Shown: positions 3 to 10,942 of the stretch, in pieces
Numbering within the stretch: the first letter of the stretch is position 1
Layout: each line of letters begins with the position of its first letter
From: Bacteroidota bacterium
Lineage (GTDB): Bacteria; Bacteroidota; Bacteroidia; Chitinophagales; JADIYW01
Reading direction: 5' to 3'
Length of the DNA stretch: 33,716 nucleotides
NCBI GenBank assembly: GCA_028288625.1
Contig: JAQBNI010000149.1
Span: 1-33,716, forward strand
Position numbers and translations under genes: made by a program
The notes under the pieces: model-generated
What the model saw: the letters and a program-made list of their open reading frames with translations, nothing else
Told to the model about the DNA's origin: nothing
Database searches by the model: none

Positions 3-1934
3 TGTCCTGGAGCTACGACAGCACAGACAGCAGGTCTTCCAACAGGATCCACCTTCCCGACGGGAACAACAACGAATACATTTACGGTAACAGATGCAGG
101 AGGATTAACAGCATCGTGCAGCTTTACAGTAACCATAACAGACAGCGAAGCACCTGTAATTATATGCCCGGCTGACACAACAGTAAATGTAATTTCCGGT
201 TGTACTGCTACAGGTTTAAACTTAGGTATACCGACAACCACTGATAATTGCGGCGTTGCCAGTGTAACAAACAATCATCCCGGCACTACTTATCCGCCGG
301 GAAATACAATCGTAACATGGACGGTAACTGATAGTGCCGGCAATACTGCGACATGTAACCAAACGGTAACGATAGTTTCTTTTTCGCCTACTATTTCATC
401 TAATAGCCCGGTATGTGAAGGTGAGAACTTAATATTAACTGCTTCAGATATTCCCGGTGCAACGTTATATACATGGTATGGTCCTTTAAATAATGTAATA
501 GGAACAACCACTCTGCCTACACTAACGGTTCTTGCTGTTACAACAGCAGAAGCCGGTTCATACAGTGTAACTGTTACGGTTAACAGTTGTACATCAACAA
601 AAGCAACAACGATCGCTGTCATAAAACCCAAGCCTACTGCACCAACTCTAACTGCTGTTAGTCCTGTATGCGAAAGGAGTTCTATTGTATTTTGTGCAGC
701 AACTGCAGATACAGGTGTAATTTATAACTGGTATGGTCCAGCAGGATTTCAATCTAATTCTAATTGTGTAACGCTAACGAATGTTACACCTGCGCAATCC
801 GGATTCTATACAGTTGTTACAACTTTAAATGGTTGTCGTTCATTAGCCGATTCTGTATTTATTCTGGTACAGCCGGCTCCACAATCGGATAGTATAGGAA
901 GCAACTCACCGTTGTGCGAACATCAAACATTACAATTATTCGATTCAGTTAGAAATCCTAACAACATTGATTTTAATTGGACAGGACCAAATGGGTTTAC
1001 ATCCAATCAGCAAAATCCTTCCTTACCAAACGTTACACTGGTTAACCAGGGATTCTATACCGTTGTGTTAACAGAGAGAGGTACAAGTTGTACATCCTTA
1101 CCTTATACCACTTTAGTGGAGATAAATGCATTCCCTGATTCGTTAGCCGCAAATAATACGGGACCTGTCTGCGAAGGAAATACGATCACGTTAAATGCCA
1201 CAAATATATTTGGTGCAGTCTATTTATGGACAGGACCCAATGGCTTTACTGCAATAGGTAAAAATCCGGTCTTAACATCTGTTACTCCTGATATGTCAGG
1301 AATATATACCGTAATTGTTGCCCTCCCCGGCGGATGTATTGATTCGGCAAAAACAAATGTGATAGTGTATCCGAATCCTATTGTTGATGCGGGTATTGAT
1401 ACTACTATCACGCAAGGCACTCTCTTACAACTGCACGGTACTTTGCTGGACAACTTTGGTAATGAAATACCTTTTCCGTTGGGAACAACTTATAACTGGT
1501 CACCTAATGCAATATTAGATCACGATTATATTCCTGATCCTATGGCTGATTTTTCAGACTTACCTGTTCCAAATCCATATAAATTTATATTTATGATTCG
1601 CGATGAACACGGATGCAGAGGCACAGATTCTATATACGTTACTGTCCTTCCATCATTTGGTTTGGTTATTCCTGATATTATTTCACCGAACGGTGACGGA
1701 TTGAATGATACCTGGAAGTTGACGTTCATTGATAACTTCAATTTAAACAACATCCCTTATCTCATTCAAATATTTGCACGAGGTGGTGCCTTAATTTACA
1801 GCAGCTCTAATTACAGTAATACTGATGGATTTGACGGAACGTTTAATGGAACTGCGTTGCCAAGTGGTGCTTACTGGTATATCATCACGACACCTGGTAA
1901 ATCATATAAAGGCGCAATCCATATTATAAGATAA
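3..1934 (+). CDS. T9SS-secreted HYR/Ig-like repeat surface protein, C-terminal part (5' truncated)
   Basis: The reading frame is open from the left edge, so the gene starts outside the window and only its last 643 residues are visible. The first ~120 residues resemble HYR modules (DSEAPVIICPADTTV, then a WTVTDSAGNTATC strand). Four Ig-like repeats of ~80 residues follow. Each opens with (S/G)PVCEG or (S/G)PLCE, has a central W(T/Y)GP and ends in a SGxYTV strand. The last ~90 residues hold IPDIISPNGDGLNDTW and end YKGAIHIIR, the CHU_C or type B T9SS sorting domain. By family knowledge such proteins cross the outer membrane through T9SS and stay attached or are released. A PorP/SprF gene lies 42 bp downstream on the same strand, as is common for gliding or adhesin loci. 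The ligand cannot be told from the sequence. Confidence 0.9.
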   Translation, partial: CPGATTAQTAGLPTGSTFPTGTTTNTFTVTDAGGLTASCSFTVTITDSEAPVIICPADTTVNVISGCTATGLNLGIPTTTDNCGVASVTNNHPGTTYPPGNTIVTWTVTDSAGNTATCNQTVTIVSFSPTISSNSPVCEGENLILTASDIPGATLYTWYGPLNNVIGTTTLPTLTVLAVTTAEAGSYSVTVTVNSCTSTKATTIAVIKPKPTAPTLTAVSPVCERSSIVFCAATADTGVIYNWYGPAGFQSNSNCVTLTNVTPAQSGFYTVVTTLNGCRSLADSVFILVQPAPQSDSIGSNSPLCEHQTLQLFDSVRNPNNIDFNWTGPNGFTSNQQNPSLPNVTLVNQGFYTVVLTERGTSCTSLPYTTLVEINAFPDSLAANNTGPVCEGNTITLNATNIFGAVYLWTGPNGFTAIGKNPVLTSVTPDMSGIYTVIVALPGGCIDSAKTNVIVYPNPIVDAGIDTTITQGTLLQLHGTLLDNFGNEIPFPLGTTYNWSPNAILDHDYIPDPMADFSDLPVPNPYKFIFMIRDEHGCRGTDSIYVTVLPSFGLVIPDIISPNGDGLNDTWKLTFIDNFNLNNIPYLIQIFARGGALIYSSSNYSNTDGFDGTFNGTALPSGAYWYIITTPGKSYKGAIHIIR

Positions 1935-4626: not shown

Positions 4627-6225
4627 TTATTTTGCGTGTACGGTTTCTTTAAATCCACTGAGCGTATAAGATGGTAGGTCTGTATTTGCCGGTCCATGGA
4701 TCACTTTTCCTTCGTAGGTAAACCTGCTTCCGTGGCACGGGCAATCCCAGCTTTTTTCATCATTGTTCCATGCTACGCTGCAACCCAGGTGTGTACATTT
4801 TGCTGAAACAATATGCATGCGGTCCTGGCTATCACGATATACTCCACATTTTTCTCCATGCAGATCCATCAGTTTGCCTTCACCCATTTTTATCGATAAC
4901 AATTCATGCTCATCACCGGTAGATTTTTTTACTCCGGGAATCACACCTTGCATCAACCCTTTAAAGAAATTACCCATCTTTTTTAATGTAACGCGCGAAG
5001 GATCATAAATTTTTTCCCATTTATTTTCCTTTCCATTTATGAGATCAGCAATTAGCATGCCACCTATTGTGCAGTACGTCATACCATCACCGGAATCTCC
5101 TGTAATAATATAAACATTATCCTTATCCCACGGATTACGACCGATAAATGCGATATAATCAATGGTTTCCATTACTTCTCCCGACCAATGATAAATGATC
5201 TGCTCAATTGGAAAATGTCTGCGCGTCCAGTTCTCTAAATTTGCATACCGTTTTTTTTCTGATACGCCGCCTGAAGTAGTATCACCCGTTACATGATCTT
5301 CTCCACCGCTGATCAAAAGATCATACTGATCGTCGTAAGGCGTTAAACGGACATAATGATATGGCGCATACGCCGAATCTTTTATTACATCACCGGTATC
5401 CCACCATAGAGCATTGGGTAGCGTACCTTTTTTAACCAGTGCACCAATTACATAAGAGCGATATCCGTTTTGTTTAAGGTGCATCACTACTTTATTATTC
5501 ACCGGGCTGTTTGTTGCAATCACAATATGCTTTGCTTTAACAGAAAATCCTTTATCCGTGGTAATGCCTTTGTGATCTATTTTTTCTGCATGCGTTTCGG
5601 TAAATATTTTTACGCCATTTTTTACTGCTGCATTTGCAAGTCCGGAAAGATATTTCATGGGATGAAATTTTGCCTGCCGTAAAAATTGAAGGCACTTACC
5701 CGGAGTAAGTACCCCGGGAATATTATCCAGTTGAGTTACTTCAATACCCACACGCGATGCCGCTTTAAATTCCTCCCACAATATATCCGGTGTCTCAGAA
5801 GGATGTACAAATAAATACCCGTTCACTCTTTCAAACTCACATTCTATTCCTTCTTTTTTTGCAGTTTCTTCAATAAAATCAATGGCTGACATATGACTTT
5901 GCGCAATCAGCTTTGCTTCTTCACCGCCAAAGATCTTCTCCAATTCATAATATCTTTCATCTAAGGAAGTAGTGAGGTGCGCGGTAGTTCTCCCGGTTTC
6001 GCCGCTTCCCAATAATCCGTCTTCCACCAACACTACTTTTTTCCCTGATTGTGAAAGACAATAAGCTACGCTGACGCCACCTAATCCACCACCAACAATT
6101 ACCACATCAGCTTCTATATTTTCAGTTAATTGAGGATAAGCAGATGGTTTAACAGAATCTATCCAAAAGCTTGTATGCCTGCCTGCAGTAACTTTTCCAT
6201 CTCTTGTATTGCTTGTATTTTTCAT
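4627..6225 (-). CDS. FAD-dependent oxidoreductase with C-terminal Rieske [2Fe-2S] domain
   Basis: 532 residues. The N-terminus (~residues 37-70) has the dinucleotide-binding signature VVIVGGGLGGVSVAYCLS and then GSGETGRTTAH, typical of the DAO/glycine-oxidase-like fold. The C-terminal ~90 residues are a Rieske domain with CTH (Cys477, His479) and CPCH (Cys495, His498), all four cluster ligands present. It belongs to the family of two-domain FAD/Rieske proteins found in Bacillus and Bacteroidota. These are presumed to pass electrons between the flavin and the cluster; the substrate is not known. There is no signal peptide, so it is probably cytoplasmic. The gene stands alone, with 90 bp to the next upstream gene. 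A TAnnTTTG-type element lies 31 nt before the start. Confidence 0.9.
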   Translation of the reverse strand: MKNTSNTRDGKVTAGRHTSFWIDSVKPSAYPQLTENIEADVVIVGGGLGGVSVAYCLSQSGKKVVLVEDGLLGSGETGRTTAHLTTSLDERYYELEKIFGGEEAKLIAQSHMSAIDFIEETAKKEGIECEFERVNGYLFVHPSETPDILWEEFKAASRVGIEVTQLDNIPGVLTPGKCLQFLRQAKFHPMKYLSGLANAAVKNGVKIFTETHAEKIDHKGITTDKGFSVKAKHIVIATNSPVNNKVVMHLKQNGYRSYVIGALVKKGTLPNALWWDTGDVIKDSAYAPYHYVRLTPYDDQYDLLISGGEDHVTGDTTSGGVSEKKRYANLENWTRRHFPIEQIIYHWSGEVMETIDYIAFIGRNPWDKDNVYIITGDSGDGMTYCTIGGMLIADLINGKENKWEKIYDPSRVTLKKMGNFFKGLMQGVIPGVKKSTGDEHELLSIKMGEGKLMDLHGEKCGVYRDSQDRMHIVSAKCTHLGCSVAWNNDEKSWDCPCHGSRFTYEGKVIHGPANTDLPSYTLSGFKETVHAK

Positions 6226-6256: not shown

Positions 6257-6264
6257 CAAAATTA
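6257..6264 (-). promoter_or_regulatory. Possible -7 element of the FAD/Rieske gene
   Basis: Read on the minus strand this is TAATTTTG, a full match to the Bacteroidota -7 consensus TAnnTTTG, 31 nt before the start codon at 6225. An ATTG lies 16 nt further upstream, slightly closer than the usual -33 spacing. Short motifs like this occur by chance in AT-rich DNA. Confidence 0.35.
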
Positions 6265-6316
6265 TTATAATTGTTCAAGGCAATCATTACATAACTTTTT
6301 TAAAGAGTTATATTAT

Positions 6317-6886
6317 TTACATGTGAACATCGGAGCCTGTAAATAAGTTATTTTCTATGGATGGATATTGTAGTTTTCCATCGATAATTTTAGCAGGGGA
6401 AGTATATGGATGTTCATTGGTTTTTCCAATACCCATGATATGCATTACTTTCCATCCGTCATGTTTAAACACATCTGATACCAGCGAGCGGTGACACCGC
6501 CACCAGACGGATTCAGAACACATGTAAGCGAGATTTTCTTTTTCAGCTATTTCTTTTAATTTCTCAATAGAATTTTTGAAGGTATCCGTTTCCATATAGT
6601 CCGCGTAGCCCCTGAACGCCGAGTTTTTCCATCCTGTATTTTTTGAAAGCGGCGTGGTTTTTCGCCGACCGCCAAGCTCTACAAAATGCATATATTGAAC
6701 GCCTTCATCGTTAAGCGTTTTTTGAAGTTGCTCTTTATTAAATTCCGGGCAATATTTTGAACCGGGAAAGCTTCGAATGTCTGCAAGTATTTTTATCTGA
6801 AATGAATGAAGCATCTTAATAAAATTTTCGATAGGCAAATTAGAATGTCCGATCGTCCAGATGGTTTTATTATACACAGCTTCCAT
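6317..6886 (-). CDS. DUF488 family protein
   Basis: 189 residues. The family hallmarks are clear: TIGHSN near the N-terminus, LADIRSFPGSKYCPEFN, LGGRR, and the Cys/His stretch MCSESVWWRCHRSLVSD around residues 140-155. DUF488 proteins are widespread, small and cytoplasmic, and have no agreed function; the conserved Cys and CHR residues suggest a redox, metal or nucleotide-related role. The gene starts 22 bp after the baeRF-like gene on the same strand, so they are probably cotranscribed. Confidence 0.88.
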   Translation of the reverse strand: MEAVYNKTIWTIGHSNLPIENFIKMLHSFQIKILADIRSFPGSKYCPEFNKEQLQKTLNDEGVQYMHFVELGGRRKTTPLSKNTGWKNSAFRGYADYMETDTFKNSIEKLKEIAEKENLAYMCSESVWWRCHRSLVSDVFKHDGWKVMHIMGIGKTNEHPYTSPAKIIDGKLQYPSIENNLFTGSDVHM

Positions 6887-6908: not shown

Positions 6909-7346
6909 TCATTTTTGATTTTCCTGAACGGGGGAAGGAGCAAAGTGATGCTTTACAAATCTTAAAGCTTCTTCCTTATTCATTTGTTGTGTTGTGAGCA
7001 ACTCTTCTCTTTTTAAATGGATCATAATGCTTTTCGTTTCCAGAACTTCTTTTTGCAGTTCATATTTGGCAGTTGCAGGACCAAATATTAAGATCCTGTG
7101 AGCTTTATCGAGCTTTGCAATAATACCTTTGCAAAATTTTTTGAGATGATCTTCATGTCTATGCTGAAGTTGCTTTTCTCTTGAAAAATCAGTGCTTCCG
7201 CTAATGTTTTCAGTTCCTGCATTATGATTTTTATGAACTTCTTCTGCGATAAATTTTTCATTCAGCAAATGATCAAGCGATATGATAAAAGCTTCCTGGT
7301 GATCAATATAGATCCCATAGTCAATGAAATTTTTTTCTACGTACAT
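6909..7346 (-). CDS. Small protein resembling baeRF / eRF1 domain-3-like proteins
   Basis: 145 residues, no signal peptide. The start (YGIYIDHQEAFIISL) and the block HRILIFGPATAKYELQKEV, followed by a short helical tail, resemble the bacterial release-factor-like (baeRF) or host-attachment families related to eRF1 domain 3. These are thought to act around ribosomes or stress, but none is well understood. The assignment rests on overall pattern only. The gene has an unusually clear Shine-Dalgarno stretch for Bacteroidota: AAAGAGGT ends 5 nt before the ATG. It lies 32 bp after the beta-propeller gene and 22 bp before the DUF488 gene, so the three may form one operon driven from ~8315. Confidence 0.6.
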   Translation of the reverse strand: MYVEKNFIDYGIYIDHQEAFIISLDHLLNEKFIAEEVHKNHNAGTENISGSTDFSREKQLQHRHEDHLKKFCKGIIAKLDKAHRILIFGPATAKYELQKEVLETKSIMIHLKREELLTTQQMNKEEALRFVKHHFAPSPVQENQK

Positions 7347-7378: not shown

Positions 7379-8257
7379 CTATTTTTTCAAGTCATCAAAA
7401 GATACGGAATATATTTTGTTTTCCCGCATTGCGGGAATCCATAACACGTGCATTTTTTTATCTTTATATATATCCGAAGGTCCGTCTATTGTTCTTCCGA
7501 GTTTGATCTCTGAGAATTGTTTCTTGCAAGGTTTGTAAGCAACTAATCGTCCCTTGGTTTCTGTTGTATTTACCCAATCTGTAACATACACCTTTCCATG
7601 GTATTTTACTATACCGTCGTATATACCGCCTTTATGAAATTCGACATATTTTTTATGACATCTTTTTATTCTTCCAAAACTTCCATCGGGTTGATCCGCA
7701 CGTCCGTAGTTTGCAATATATAGCCTTCCGCCCGGATTACGGAATAAGCCGTTAGCGCCAAGCGTTTCCCCTTTTATCTTTAATTGCTTTACTGTTGCTT
7801 TCTTCTTGCATACTTTATAAACCGCATCCTTCAAGGTTGCAGAAACATAGAATCCGCCATGCGCTCTTGCAATATCATTCGCGTATGTAACACCTAAACC
7901 TGAAAGATCTGCTTCAAAAACTTTCTTCTTCGTTTTAATATTATATCCCACTACTTTGTCAATATCAGCGATATATAATACACCGCATTTCGCATACATT
8001 CCTTTTGGAGAATTTAAGCCGGAAATAAATTTCTGTTCAGTTATTTTTCCTCCATCACGCTGCAACATCGAAATATATCCATCGCCATCTTTAGCTACAG
8101 GATCTAATTTTTCACCAGTATTAGAAACAAACAAATGATCTTTATATGCAAGTACACTTTCCGGATTTTGAAAACCACCGATCTCCTTTGTTTTCTGCGC
8201 ATATGCAGCAAATAATATATTGCACAACACAGCTATAAACAAAAATTTCTTTTTCAT
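7379..8257 (-). CDS. Secreted SMP-30/NHL-like beta-propeller protein
   Basis: 292 residues. A signal peptide ends near A20 (AAYA|QK). The rest is a run of beta-propeller strands with repeats such as FQNPESVLAYKDHLFVSNTG, LNSPKGMYAKCGVLYIAD and GRLYIANYGR. This is the pattern of SMP-30/gluconolactonase-like or NHL proteins. It is predicted periplasmic or surface-exposed; lactonase activity is possible, but I cannot identify the metal ligands with certainty. It is rich in Lys and has several Cys (KKCHKK, YKPCKKQ). Its promoter region shares an operator-like direct repeat and a -7 element with the two TIGR03118 genes upstream, which also encode exported propellers. Confidence 0.75.
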   Translation of the reverse strand: MKKKFLFIAVLCNILFAAYAQKTKEIGGFQNPESVLAYKDHLFVSNTGEKLDPVAKDGDGYISMLQRDGGKITEQKFISGLNSPKGMYAKCGVLYIADIDKVVGYNIKTKKKVFEADLSGLGVTYANDIARAHGGFYVSATLKDAVYKVCKKKATVKQLKIKGETLGANGLFRNPGGRLYIANYGRADQPDGSFGRIKRCHKKYVEFHKGGIYDGIVKYHGKVYVTDWVNTTETKGRLVAYKPCKKQFSEIKLGRTIDGPSDIYKDKKMHVLWIPAMRENKIYSVSFDDLKK

Positions 8258-8314: not shown

Positions 8315-8370
8315 CAAATATACTTGTATGCGATTTGTGGTGTGTTACACAACTTTATACCAGAATTATA
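8315..8370 (-). promoter_or_regulatory. Promoter with 21-nt-spaced direct repeats, upstream of the SMP-30-like gene
   Basis: Read on the minus strand: TATAATT (8370-8364), 14 nt, TGTAACA (8349-8343), 20 nt, then TATATTTG (8322-8315), a perfect TAnnTTTG -7 element, 57 nt before the ATG. No TTTG -33 box sits at the expected place; the repeats occupy it. The two TIGR03118 promoters have the same spacing. The layout suggests activator-dependent transcription. Confidence 0.6.
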
Positions 8371-8387
8371 TTATTCACACATTGCAT

Positions 8388-8414
8388 AAAAAAGTCCTGA
8401 TGATACATCAGGAC
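8388..8414 (-). terminator. Intrinsic terminator of the downstream TIGR03118 gene
   Basis: GTCCTGATG (8394-8402) and CATCAGGAC (8406-8414) form a perfect 9-bp stem with a 3-nt loop. Read on the minus strand it is followed by six T residues (8393-8388). It sits 27 bp after the stop codon of the gene ending at 8442 and isolates that gene from the SMP-30-like gene. Confidence 0.85.
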
Positions 8415-8441
8415 ATGGTATTAATGAGTTGGGGAATATTT

Positions 8442-9560
8442 TTATCTTTTTTTGATGTAGCCGAATAAGCCGTGTTCTTCACCGTATGGTCCGGCTGTAT
8501 AGAAGAGCTGATTTTGATCGCCCGTTGGCTGACCATTCACCGGGAATGAAAGCGCCCATAAACCATCGATAGAGATGGGATTAGTGCCATCTTTTAATTG
8601 TCCCTGGAATACACCTGATGAATCAAAAACGTTGATTCGTCCATCACCGAAATTTCCTACAAGAAGCATATTTGAACCAAGACCAAATCCATCGGGCGCT
8701 TTGGTAATTGCCCATGGAGAGTTAAGCGTTCCGGTGGAAGCAAAACGTTTTACTAAAGTACCATTTGGATTAAAAATATTGATGTATCCGTTTCCGGCTC
8801 CTTTTTCATCATCTTCATTATCCGGACCTAATTGCTTGGCATATGCTATGTATAATTTTCCATCGATATTCTGAATATTAAAAGGCGCAAAGCCCGCGGG
8901 TATGGTAGGATCCAAAAATAATTTTGTAAGAACGAGGTTGAAATCTTTATCAAATACATCTACACGATTTCCTTTAAAATTTGCCAGGTAAATGAAATTT
9001 TTATTGCCATCTGAGGGATCACTTGCCATTGCAATACCCTTATATACTGCGCTCAATAAAGATCTGTCTGCAACAGTAGTTGCGGACATACCTGAACTCC
9101 AGGCTAATACTTTACCGCCTTCTCCGGCAAAAATAAATTTATTCGCTCCGAAATCTGAAGTGCTGTTATATATAACTCCTGTCGGATCGCCATCTACTGT
9201 AACCGGCGCTAAAGCAGTTGCTCCGTTCCGGTCATATACTGTAGATACATTTTTATGGTTGGATGCGATCCATAAATATCCTGTTGGTCCGATGGCAATT
9301 CCCCATGCATTATTAAGGTTGCTGTCGATCCGCGCGGCACCGATTGCAGTATCAGCAACAAGCTTTACTTCCTGGTAACCGGTTGTTGTAGTTGTATTAT
9401 TATTGTCGCTGCTCTTCTTGCATCCCGAATTAACTGCTATACTCAGGAATAATAACCAGAATGCAAAAGGAGAAAAAATACCGTGAAATAATTTAGATGT
9501 CGTTTTTAAATCATCGTTTTTTTTAATTAACGATTGATTTCTTTGGTTGGATGCTTTCAT
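8442..9560 (-). CDS. TIGR03118 family beta-propeller lipoprotein (paralogue 1)
   Basis: 372 residues from the ATG at 9560. An in-frame ATG at 9584 would give 380, but it lies only ~7 nt after the predicted -7 element, so the inner start is preferred. A long charged N-region precedes a hydrophobic segment ending NSGCKKSS, a lipoprotein-like Cys. The body shows TIGR03118 features: VKLVADT, NAWGIAIGPTGYLWIASN, GDPTGVIYN, a GNRVDVFD block, FAPFNIQNIDGKLYIAYAK, GYINIFNPNGTLVKRFA and LNSPWAITKAP. These are strands of a beta-propeller of unknown function. The neighbour at 9684-10769 is a clear paralogue with matching blocks in the same order, so this is a tandem duplication. Confidence 0.88.
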   Translation of the reverse strand: MKASNQRNQSLIKKNDDLKTTSKLFHGIFSPFAFWLLFLSIAVNSGCKKSSDNNNTTTTTGYQEVKLVADTAIGAARIDSNLNNAWGIAIGPTGYLWIASNHKNVSTVYDRNGATALAPVTVDGDPTGVIYNSTSDFGANKFIFAGEGGKVLAWSSGMSATTVADRSLLSAVYKGIAMASDPSDGNKNFIYLANFKGNRVDVFDKDFNLVLTKLFLDPTIPAGFAPFNIQNIDGKLYIAYAKQLGPDNEDDEKGAGNGYINIFNPNGTLVKRFASTGTLNSPWAITKAPDGFGLGSNMLLVGNFGDGRINVFDSSGVFQGQLKDGTNPISIDGLWALSFPVNGQPTGDQNQLFYTAGPYGEEHGLFGYIKKR

Positions 9561-9591
9561 TTCTCTCAAATAATTGGTGAACAATATTTTA

Positions 9592-9647
9592 TAAAATTGG
9601 ACCCACCACAGCAGATGTGTGTTATATAACTTATTATAAATGTTATA
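9592..9647 (-). promoter_or_regulatory. Promoter with 21-nt-spaced direct repeats, upstream of TIGR03118 paralogue 1
   Basis: Read on the minus strand: TATAACA (9647-9641), 14 nt, TATAACA (9626-9620), 20 nt, then CAATTTTA (9599-9592), a weak -7 candidate. The inner repeat is part of the perfect palindrome GTTATATAAC (9621-9630). The 14- and 20-nt spacings equal those at the other two propeller promoters. Confidence 0.55.
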
Positions 9648-9683
9648 TCATTTGCAGGCGATGGGAGAGAATGAAAAAGATTT

Positions 9684-10769
9684 TTAATTTCTCTTTATAT
9701 AACCAAAGATGCCATATTCTTTATTGCGATGACCCGAAGTATAATATAATTTCTGATCTTTTACCGAATTATAATTTAAAGGAAATTCTAATGCGAGTAA
9801 CCCGGGAATAGTTAATGTGCCATCCCCATTCTTTAACTGTCCCTGATATGTACCATTCGGATTGAATACATTAATTTTTCCATCTCCAAAATTTCCAACC
9901 AGGATGGCATCTGCTACCTGACCAAATCCTGCAGGCGCCTGAACAATTCCCCATGGAGAATTCAGATTGCCTTCTGAAGCGAAGCGTTTTATAAAATACC
10001 CGTTTGGTGTAAAAACATTTATATACCCGTTTCCTGCTCCCGGATCATCAATATCATCATTCGGTCCTTTGAGTTTGGCATAAGTAACATATAATTTACC
10101 ATTGATATTTTTTATATTGAAGGGAGCAAATTCTTTCGGCAGTGTTCTGTCCTCAAATAATTTCGTAGTGACAGGATTAAAATTTTTATCAAATACATCG
10201 ATGTGATTCCCTTTAAAATTTGCAGCATATAAAAAGGTTTCACCCGCATCAGTTGCAATGGCAAGTCCTTTATACACTGCATTAGGATTGTTCACAACAA
10301 CTGTGGCAGAATTAGAGGAACCGCAGGAAGAAATGGTACCGTTTTCGCAGGCAAAAAGATATTTACTTACATCACCGGTAGCAGGAATCGCAAATGAAGA
10401 TGAATTGTTGTATACAATACCGGTAGGTTTTCCCTGCATACTTACACTCATCAATAACGGTTTTCCGTTTCCATCATAATTTGTACACTTGCTGTTCTTG
10501 TTAGAAGTGATCCAGAACTCACCGACAGGAGACATCGCAATACCCCATGGGTTTGTAATATTTTCATCCGTCCATGCTGCGTGATATTCCGATGCGTCTG
10601 CAACGAGTCTTACATCCTGGTAAGTTTTTGAATAAGACGGAATGGAATCCGGTGATGTAGGACGGTCTTTATTGCATCCGGAATTTGCCATCAGGCAGGA
10701 GAGCATAATGCGCAAAATAAAGGATCTTGAAAAAGACGGAATTTTTTTACTAAGTGTAGATAAGATCAT
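9684..10769 (-). CDS. TIGR03118 family beta-propeller lipoprotein (paralogue 2)
   Basis: 361 residues. A hydrophobic N-terminal segment ends LMANSGCNKD, a lipoprotein-like Cys near residue 32. Blocks shared with the neighbouring paralogue are VRLVADAS, NPWGIAMSPVGEFWITSN, GKPTGIVYN, GNHIDVFDKNFNPV, FAPFNIKNINGKLYVTYAK, GYINVFTPNG and LNSPWGI. They support the TIGR03118 family and a beta-propeller fold. It is predicted to be exported and lipid-anchored; no catalytic residues are recognisable. It has its own promoter (10794-10849). No hairpin terminator is visible between it and paralogue 1, so read-through is possible. Confidence 0.88.
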   Translation of the reverse strand: MILSTLSKKIPSFSRSFILRIMLSCLMANSGCNKDRPTSPDSIPSYSKTYQDVRLVADASEYHAAWTDENITNPWGIAMSPVGEFWITSNKNSKCTNYDGNGKPLLMSVSMQGKPTGIVYNNSSSFAIPATGDVSKYLFACENGTISSCGSSNSATVVVNNPNAVYKGLAIATDAGETFLYAANFKGNHIDVFDKNFNPVTTKLFEDRTLPKEFAPFNIKNINGKLYVTYAKLKGPNDDIDDPGAGNGYINVFTPNGYFIKRFASEGNLNSPWGIVQAPAGFGQVADAILVGNFGDGKINVFNPNGTYQGQLKNGDGTLTIPGLLALEFPLNYNSVKDQKLYYTSGHRNKEYGIFGYIKRN

Positions 10770-10793
10770 TTTTCATAGTTTGCTGGTACAAAG

Positions 10794-10849
10794 CAAATAT
10801 GCGCTGACTCGATTATACACTTGTTATAACACTTCTATAAAATGTTATA
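10794..10849 (-). promoter_or_regulatory. Promoter with 21-nt-spaced direct repeats, upstream of TIGR03118 paralogue 2
   Basis: Read on the minus strand: TATAACA (10849-10843), 14 nt, TATAACA (10828-10822), 20 nt, then CATATTTG (10801-10794), which differs from TAnnTTTG only in its first base. The start codon is 24 nt further on. The inner repeat is part of the palindrome TGTTATAACA (10822-10831). The outer flank CCTGCAAAT (10860-10852) also occurs in the paralogue 1 promoter. Confidence 0.6.
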
Positions 10850-10942
10850 CGATTTGCAGGTTTAATTAGTTAATGAGAGGATAAAATGAGATGATGGGTG
10901 AAGGAAAGAATTTGACAATCCGCTCATCATTTGTATTTGTAT

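Follow-up and report, generated by a model that had tools for sequence, protein, structure and literature searches.

A direct-repeat promoter site shared across a Bacteroidota genome and its candidate HMA-AraC activator

Class II activators of the AraC/XylS family, such as AraC at araBAD and MarA, SoxS and Rob, bind DNA through an AraC-type double helix-turn-helix (HTH), and the araI1-I2 site is described as a pair of direct-repeat half-sites 21 bp apart, the proximal one lying next to the -35 element. LytTR regulators, among them AgrA, ComE and AlgR, are likewise described as activating transcription from a 21-nt direct repeat next to -35. Here, we analyze a promoter element with such a period in a Bacteroidota bacterium of the order Chitinophagales (assembly GCA_028288625.1). 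The window is the whole stretch of 33,716 nucleotides, positions 1 to 33,716 of contig JAQBNI010000149.1, in which a preliminary description had noted the element upstream of three genes for beta-propeller proteins, one SMP-30-like and two of the TIGR03118 family, and had suggested a LytTR-type regulator. These three promoters and a fourth one in the window belong to a set of sites found throughout the genome, and it is probable, at roughly 0.8 in our estimate, that the set is a regulon switched on by a small activator in which an HMA-like domain is joined to an AraC-type HTH.

Geometry of the site in the window and in the genome

All three promoters have the repeat with its 21-nt period and, 20 nt from it, a -7 octamer, as first described. 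The pattern occurs exactly at 8315-8370, 9592-9647 and 10794-10849, all on the minus strand, giving three matches in the window as compared to none in 100 dinucleotide shuffles. Since the sites had themselves served to write this pattern, an independent test was made with a weight matrix. Its training set consisted of 27 genome sites that lie outside the window, three window sites having been removed. This matrix identified four sites in the window, starting at 6322 (score 38.9), 8380 (38.5), 9657 (32.9) and 10859 (23.0), while the next best position scored 8.0, and the background maxima were 18.5 in 60 first-order Markov surrogate windows and 19.0 in 127 reversed real loci. The site of the SMP-30-like gene at 8344..8380 differs by one mismatch from the genome-wide pattern given below. 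The promoters of the two TIGR03118 genes are alike and the genes are paralogues, with 48% identity between their products, and they are therefore not independent evidence of each other.

The complete genome dataset (3.71 Mb in 161 contigs) contains 41 matches to TRTAAC-N(12..18)-TRTAAC, of which 22 have a gap of exactly N15, which corresponds to the 21-nt period, and 2-5 have each of the other gaps. The reversed pair pattern has 64 matches over all gaps, so that the total of 41 is no excess and the signal consists of the peak at one gap, N15. The period of 21 nt is a genuine feature of the genome. Four of the 22 matches are tandem arrays with a period of seven; such ATAACTT-like arrays, located at C35:47946, C73:17394-17427 and C95:32547 (contig number and position), mimic the 21-nt period and were set aside as something different from the sites.

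An alignment of the matches showed that the conserved element extends beyond the two repeats and includes a GTGTGAAT-like block immediately upstream of the first one. The extended pattern GTGTGAATnATRTAAC-n15-TRTAAC, with up to three mismatches, has 30 matches in the whole genome and none when reversed. These 30 sites were selected without any information from the -10 region, and a -7 box nevertheless appeared in them de novo, with TT at positions 62-63 in all 30 and an A at position 59 in 26. The octamer YAnnTTTR is present with at most one mismatch in 29 of them, the thirtieth, on contig C48, having two. Its distance to the repeats is exactly as in the window sites in 20 and one nucleotide shorter in 9, so the spacing that had been described as rigid holds for the three window promoters but has one nucleotide of play in the genome at large. 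The plain repeats, TATAACA-N14-TATAACA, are uninformative at three mismatches (1305 matches vs 1926 in the reversed control), and the pattern with the -7 box, TRTAAY-N15-TRTAAC-N21-YANNTTTR at two mismatches, is moderately specific (67 vs 30). The weight matrix found 49 sites at a score of at least 18 in the fetched parts of the genome, which were largely picked for pattern matches, and six of these have no ATG reading frame of 50 amino acids within the allowed distance downstream.

The position of the repeats at the place of the -33 element and their nearly fixed spacing to the octamer support, at the level of sequence, the proposed activator-like site. Since the TRTAAC to octamer distance is nearly fixed, as in a -35/-10 pair, the elements could also be taken for the recognition site of an alternative sigma factor. 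Such a site would have to accommodate two tandem repeats and a distal block, and the downstream octamer corresponds to the ordinary Bacteroidota TAnnTTTG box. Furthermore, the only sigma factor recognized by eye among the 40 most recurrent protein families of the 80 regulator loci introduced below is housekeeping-like and present in five loci. We consider a sigma factor site to be extremely improbable, and an activator site the better description.

An AraC-type protein and its association with the site

To the set of sites in the window's genome correspond similar sites in other members of the phylum. At least one match to the motif was found in 123 of the 395 phylum genomes, with uneven counts, and the matches are clustered in some of them. 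Eleven such motif-rich regions were fetched, which were picked by the motif and not by a regulator gene. The first five regions, from the window's order, all encode a protein of about 186 amino acids, with an AraC-type HTH in the three that were scanned. In total, a profile search placed this protein inside 6 of the 11 regions. For 4 others it is encoded on the same contig at a distance of up to about 15 kb, while in the eleventh (G068) the close copy sits on another contig. In a separate case, a nearly letter-identical site, ATGGGAATTATATAACGTTTCTTTTTTATGCTGTAA, is located upstream of one and the same series of genes in five genomes (L347-L351) from a single genus of the window's class; this genus belongs to the middle regulator tier defined below and was chosen as its site was already among the listed motif matches.

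The window's own genome encodes a 186-aa copy of the protein at C3:18002-18559, with 71% identity to the query from the same order. Its C-terminal half contains the AraC-type double HTH (PF12833, E 2e-17; PF00165, E 2.2e-10), and in a fold search AraC-type DNA-binding domains were the best matches among solved structures (best E 8e-5). The predicted structure, with a mean predicted local distance difference test score (pLDDT) of 90, combines this HTH with a beta-alpha-beta-beta-alpha-beta N-terminal domain that has the ferredoxin-like fold of HMA domains. The closest folds to the N-terminal domain are chaperones of the CopZ/Atx1 type, with probabilities of 0.99-1.00 but Foldseek E-values of 0.04-0.17, and template modelling scores of 0.63-0.70 by target length over 65-68 alignment columns. 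No HMA match was obtained for this domain in Pfam. The metal-binding motif MxCxxC is not retained: of its two cysteines, only the second, at position 13, is invariant over 30 regulator sequences, and the CxxC is mostly degenerate, being SIRC in the window's genome and CIRC in some relatives. These 30 sequences have 26 invariant columns, 19 of which are located from position 93 onwards.

To relate the protein to the motif, the 394 other genomes, the window's own being excluded, were sorted into tiers by their best homologue, with at most eight candidates scored per genome. A close homologue (E at most 1e-67) is encoded in 33 genomes, and these contain 135 motif matches vs 17 in the control; the 39 genomes of the middle tier (E 1e-67 to 1e-50) contain 74 vs 27. 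The 109 genomes with a weaker homologue only have 54 vs 54, and the 213 genomes with no homologue have 60 vs 36. The middle tier was left out when the comparison was made by class. Within the window's class, three or more net matches are present in 14 of the 19 genomes that encode a close homologue, as compared to 1 of 50 from the two lower tiers; for genomes of the phylum outside this class, the corresponding numbers are 5 of 14 and 3 of 272.

An independent set consisted of 80 regulator loci from other genomes (L201-L280), with up to 10 kb on each side of the gene and 1.34 Mb in total. Many of them are metagenome bins, and they include Flavobacterium, Niastella, Arcicella, Algibacter, Dyadobacter and Ancylomarina. 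The loci contain 171 sites at a score of at least 20 vs none in the reversed sequence, and a site is present in 66 of them at that score, in 68 at a score of 18, and beside the regulator gene in 16 of the 19 named isolates. The spacing is reproduced here as well: pairs of TRTAAY occur 101 times at N15 but only 3-28 times at each other gap between 0 and 44, vs 21 at N15 and 5-21 at other gaps in the reversed sequence. The two T's of the -7 box are found in 129 and 130, respectively, of 134 sites that were picked without -7 information. In 55 of the 80 loci, a site on the same strand falls into the stretch from 600 bp before the regulator gene to 300 bp beyond it, vs 154 of 2587 (6%) random windows from the same loci, windows closer than 1.5 kb to the gene being excluded. 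There are 27 loci whose site begins, always in exactly one register, on the final codon and stop codon of their regulator gene.

The LytTR-type response regulator that had been suggested to bind the repeat, with its GTT core, and to activate the promoters was not associated with the sites in any of the tests that were run. The 21-nt period and the position next to -33 do fit LytTR sites as they are described, but the period is common to AraC and LytTR sites and thus not decisive. The window's genome has four LytTR genes, one of them about 6.5 kb from the AraC-type gene on C3, and none of the four has a site within about 1.5 kb, nor has any of 30 LytTR loci from the phylum. With the same flanks, a site was found in 11 of 29 phylum loci of a close AraC homologue vs 0 of 30 LytTR loci. 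Moreover, LytTR genes are absent from the 11 motif-rich regions, occur once in the 80 regulator loci, and are present in 266 of the 395 genomes, including some without a motif match (G111, G045, G347). The distal half-site, with 16 bp, is longer than the 9-bp LytTR repeat, and GTTAYA is unlike the LytTR core GTTN[AG][TG]. In each of the tests of gene association, the AraC-type protein performs better. A LytTR regulator is thus a very unlikely candidate. The LytTR response regulator gene on C3 (L125 10009-10716, in the area of C3:25035) is followed by a sensor-kinase-like gene.

It is also conceivable that the site is bound by another transcription factor, encoded elsewhere, and that the AraC-type protein simply belongs to the regulon, for example by being induced by that factor. 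In 19 of the 80 loci, a same-strand site lies within 600 bp upstream of the AraC-type gene, as for a target. Histidine kinases and receiver proteins are frequent neighbours, and 13 of the 33 genomes with a close AraC homologue have fewer than three matches. Against this stand the co-occurrence of the motif with the close homologue over the 394 genomes and a site geometry that matches that described for AraC half-sites. In addition, inspection by eye of the 40 families that recur most often in the 80 loci, which were chosen by the AraC-type gene, revealed no other specific DNA-binding regulator. We therefore consider another factor to be unlikely, although less so than a LytTR regulator, and retain the AraC-type protein as the probable activator.

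Several observations weigh against this assignment. The direct promoter of the regulator gene in the window's genome is a weak match with a score of 17.3, below the surrogate maximum of 18.5; a strong site at C3:19714 is located 1.1 kb upstream of the gene, but before a gene of its own. Three further homologues are encoded on contigs C32, C101 (partial, at the contig end) and C66. No site at score 20 was found in the loci around them, of which that on C101 is short, yet the C101 homologue is 2.5 kb from a site at C101:2898, so that the acting copy may be one other than that on C3. In the phylum, the genome counts are not phylogenetically independent, being split by class only, and a close regulator copy could have been missed among the at most eight candidates scored per genome. 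Five of the 33 genomes with a close regulator lack a strict motif match (G033, G297, G331, G274, G104), and eight genomes outside the two upper tiers have at least three matches, although in one of them, G394, two of the six are identical copies. Twelve of the 80 regulator loci have no site at score 18; in several of these (Chryseobacterium, Empedobacter), diverged repeats can be seen by eye at the same place. Finally, all scanned relatives of the three beta-propeller genes have site-free loci, as described below.

Proposed mechanism, regulon members and genes of the window

In the arrangement we propose, two AraC-type protomers would occupy two directly repeated half-sites that are 21 bp, or two helical turns, apart. 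The distal half-site GTGTGAATnATRTAAC would lie at about -69 to -54 and the proximal one, AnTTRTRTAAC, over the place of the -33 element, with its TRTAAC at about -38 to -33, as estimated from the -7 box. The bound activator would then recruit RNA polymerase with the housekeeping sigma factor to the -7 box, which resembles TAnnTTTG and lies 20-21 nt downstream, as in class II activation. The targets would be proteins of the envelope, osmotic and general stress responses. The gene of the regulator is often found among or next to these stress-type genes, and has a site of its own. What the computation shows is the site with its geometry, the regulon and its conservation, and the co-occurrence and co-location of these with the AraC-type protein, whereas binding, activation, the dimer arrangement, the stress role and the sensing are inferred.

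The signal may be sensed through the HMA-like domain or through a neighbouring histidine kinase and cupin. In the window's genome, the regulator gene is followed by a cupin gene (Cupin_2 below the cut-off) and a histidine kinase gene, and the cupin gene is preceded by a variant site, TACAAC-N15-TACAAT, with a -7 box in register as judged by eye. Among the 80 loci, the proteins that recur beside the AraC-type gene are cupin-like (33 loci), receiver-only (27 loci) and PAS or hybrid histidine kinases (26 loci), and these are possible signalling inputs. One representative of each neighbour family was scanned with Pfam, in which the cupin-like one had no match.

The genes behind the sites in the window's genome, of whose products 20 were scanned against Pfam, encode Usp, CsbD and BON proteins, OmpA with TSP3 repeats, MlaE, DUF4142, two DUF6799 proteins, an ice-binding-like protein, topoisomerase IB, two short-chain dehydrogenases (SDR), a GH130 protein, DUF6496, a TPR protein and several small lipoprotein-like proteins. 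Typical general stress proteins (Usp, CsbD, BON, SDR and others) are thus found under one promoter type. Judging from these names, such a set of targets would fit a response to general or envelope stress.

The features of the window are listed in Table 1. The fourth promoter, new here, extends with its octamer over 6257-6322, and its activator site (6286..6322) ends 60 nt upstream of a gene for an oxidoreductase dependent on flavin adenine dinucleotide (FAD) with a Rieske domain. This site starts on ATG TAA, the final codon and stop of the gene at 6317-6886, which is the same overlap as that seen at the regulator gene in 27 of the 80 other loci.

Table 1. Promoter sites and associated genes in the 33,716-nt window
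Feature	Position	Strand	Remarks
Proposed activator site, SMP-30-like gene	8344..8380	minus	GTGTGAATAATATAAT-N15-TGTAAC; distal and proximal repeat, 21-nt period
-7 octamer TATATTTG, SMP-30-like promoter	8315..8322	minus	register as in 20/30 genome sites; 9 others 1 nt nearer
Proposed activator site, TIGR03118 gene B	9621..9657	minus	CTGCAAATGATATAAC-N15-TATAAC; leave-window-out score 32.9
-7 octamer CAATTTTA, TIGR03118 gene B promoter	9592..9599	minus	
Proposed activator site, TIGR03118 gene A	10823..10859	minus	CTGCAAATCGTATAAC-N15-TATAAC; score 23.0, in no training set
-7 octamer CATATTTG, TIGR03118 gene A promoter	10794..10801	minus	
Proposed fourth site, before FAD/Rieske gene	6286..6322	minus	ATGTAAATAATATAAC-N15-TGTAAT; score 38.9, the best of the window
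-7 octamer TAATTTTG, fourth site	6257..6264	minus	
FAD-dependent oxidoreductase with C-terminal Rieske domain, putative target of the fourth site	4627..6225	minus	Pfam DAO and Rieske
Small protein downstream of SMP-30-like gene	6909..7346	minus	49% identical to the product of another site-bearing gene (C116:42092)
Beta-propeller protein (SMP-30-like), signal-like N-terminus	7379..8257	minus	predicted structure; closest solved fold Cj1041c
TIGR03118 family protein B, lipoprotein-like N-terminus by eye	8442..9560	minus	NCBIfam TIGR03118, E 4.9e-86
TIGR03118 family protein A, lipoprotein-like N-terminus by eye	9684..10769	minus	NCBIfam TIGR03118, E 3.4e-80

Of the three presumed exported beta-propellers, the SMP-30-like protein is supported as such a fold by its predicted structure (pLDDT 89). 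The other two are confirmed members of TIGR03118. Export of the three is judged by eye from the N-termini. The SMP-30-like protein had no match in Pfam or NCBIfam, and its best structural match is not SMP-30 but Cj1041c of Campylobacter jejuni (Foldseek E 9e-23, 34% identity), some entries of which contain calcium. Its gene and the small gene at 6909-7346 probably form one operon, as indicated by the gene order.

The conservation of the site upstream of the TIGR03118 relatives, which had been proposed as a check, was not observed: none of 5 loci has a site at a score of at least 12, and the family itself is present in only 4 of the 395 phylum genomes, the window's own included. Likewise, no site at a score of at least 15 was found for 6 close and 23 weak relatives of the SMP-30-like gene (0/29), a few of these loci starting at a contig end with little upstream DNA. 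Conservation thus fails for the three beta-propeller genes but succeeds for the wider regulon, and the three look like recent, lineage-specific recruits to an older regulon. That they share one regulon is upheld, but they do not constitute it, as they account for 3 of the 49 sites in the fetched parts of the genome.

Comparison with known regulatory systems

Two further groups of known proteins invite comparison. The regulons of SigB, RpoS and EcfG overlap with the present one in the target families Usp, CsbD, BON and SDR, and in a ferritin-like protein in a relative. They differ in that the sites described here are direct repeats as for an activator, and no alternative sigma factor was seen. 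The known general stress sigma factors are said to be lacking in Bacteroidota. The switch described here may be part of a general stress system of this phylum. More tentatively, and with somewhat less than even confidence, we suggest that the HMA-AraC protein acts, in much of the phylum, as the master activator of a general stress response that covers envelope, osmotic and desiccation stress. It would then fill the role that SigB, RpoS or EcfG have elsewhere, with its signal supplied by the ferredoxin-like domain and by the nearby histidine kinase and cupin, a combination that we hold with the same reserve. With a site of tight geometry and one small candidate regulator, general stress control in Bacteroidota becomes directly testable in common laboratory strains of Flavobacterium or Niastella. 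If true, the proposal would also provide a regulatory context for poorly known stress-type proteins such as DUF4142, DUF6496, DUF6799, DUF5670 and TIGR03118.

With the HMA copper chaperones CopZ and Atx1, the regulator shares the fold of the N-terminal domain, as predicted, and the invariant cysteine at position 13. Unlike in these chaperones, the CxxC is mostly degenerate and the domain is fused to an AraC-type HTH. The open-access literature, in narrow multi-term searches, yielded nothing on the motif or on an HMA-AraC regulator, which is a weak sign that they are unpublished.

The site has the 21-nt direct repeat next to -35 and the presumed activating role in common with LytTR regulators, but its half-site is longer, its core is different and it shows no association with LytTR genes. 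The closest likeness is to the class II activators of the AraC/XylS family, with which the candidate shares the double HTH and, at its proposed sites, the araI1-I2 layout of the repeats. However, the regulator has an HMA/CopZ-like N-terminal domain where AraC has a cupin domain that binds arabinose, and its sites are combined with a Bacteroidota -7 box and many stress-type targets. The half-sites are also asymmetric, the distal block GTGTGAAT being conserved and the proximal one not. These features, as read from the sequences, suggest that the novelty lies in an AraC-type regulon whose regulator has another kind of N-terminal domain, whose site is asymmetric and whose targets are of the stress type throughout the phylum.

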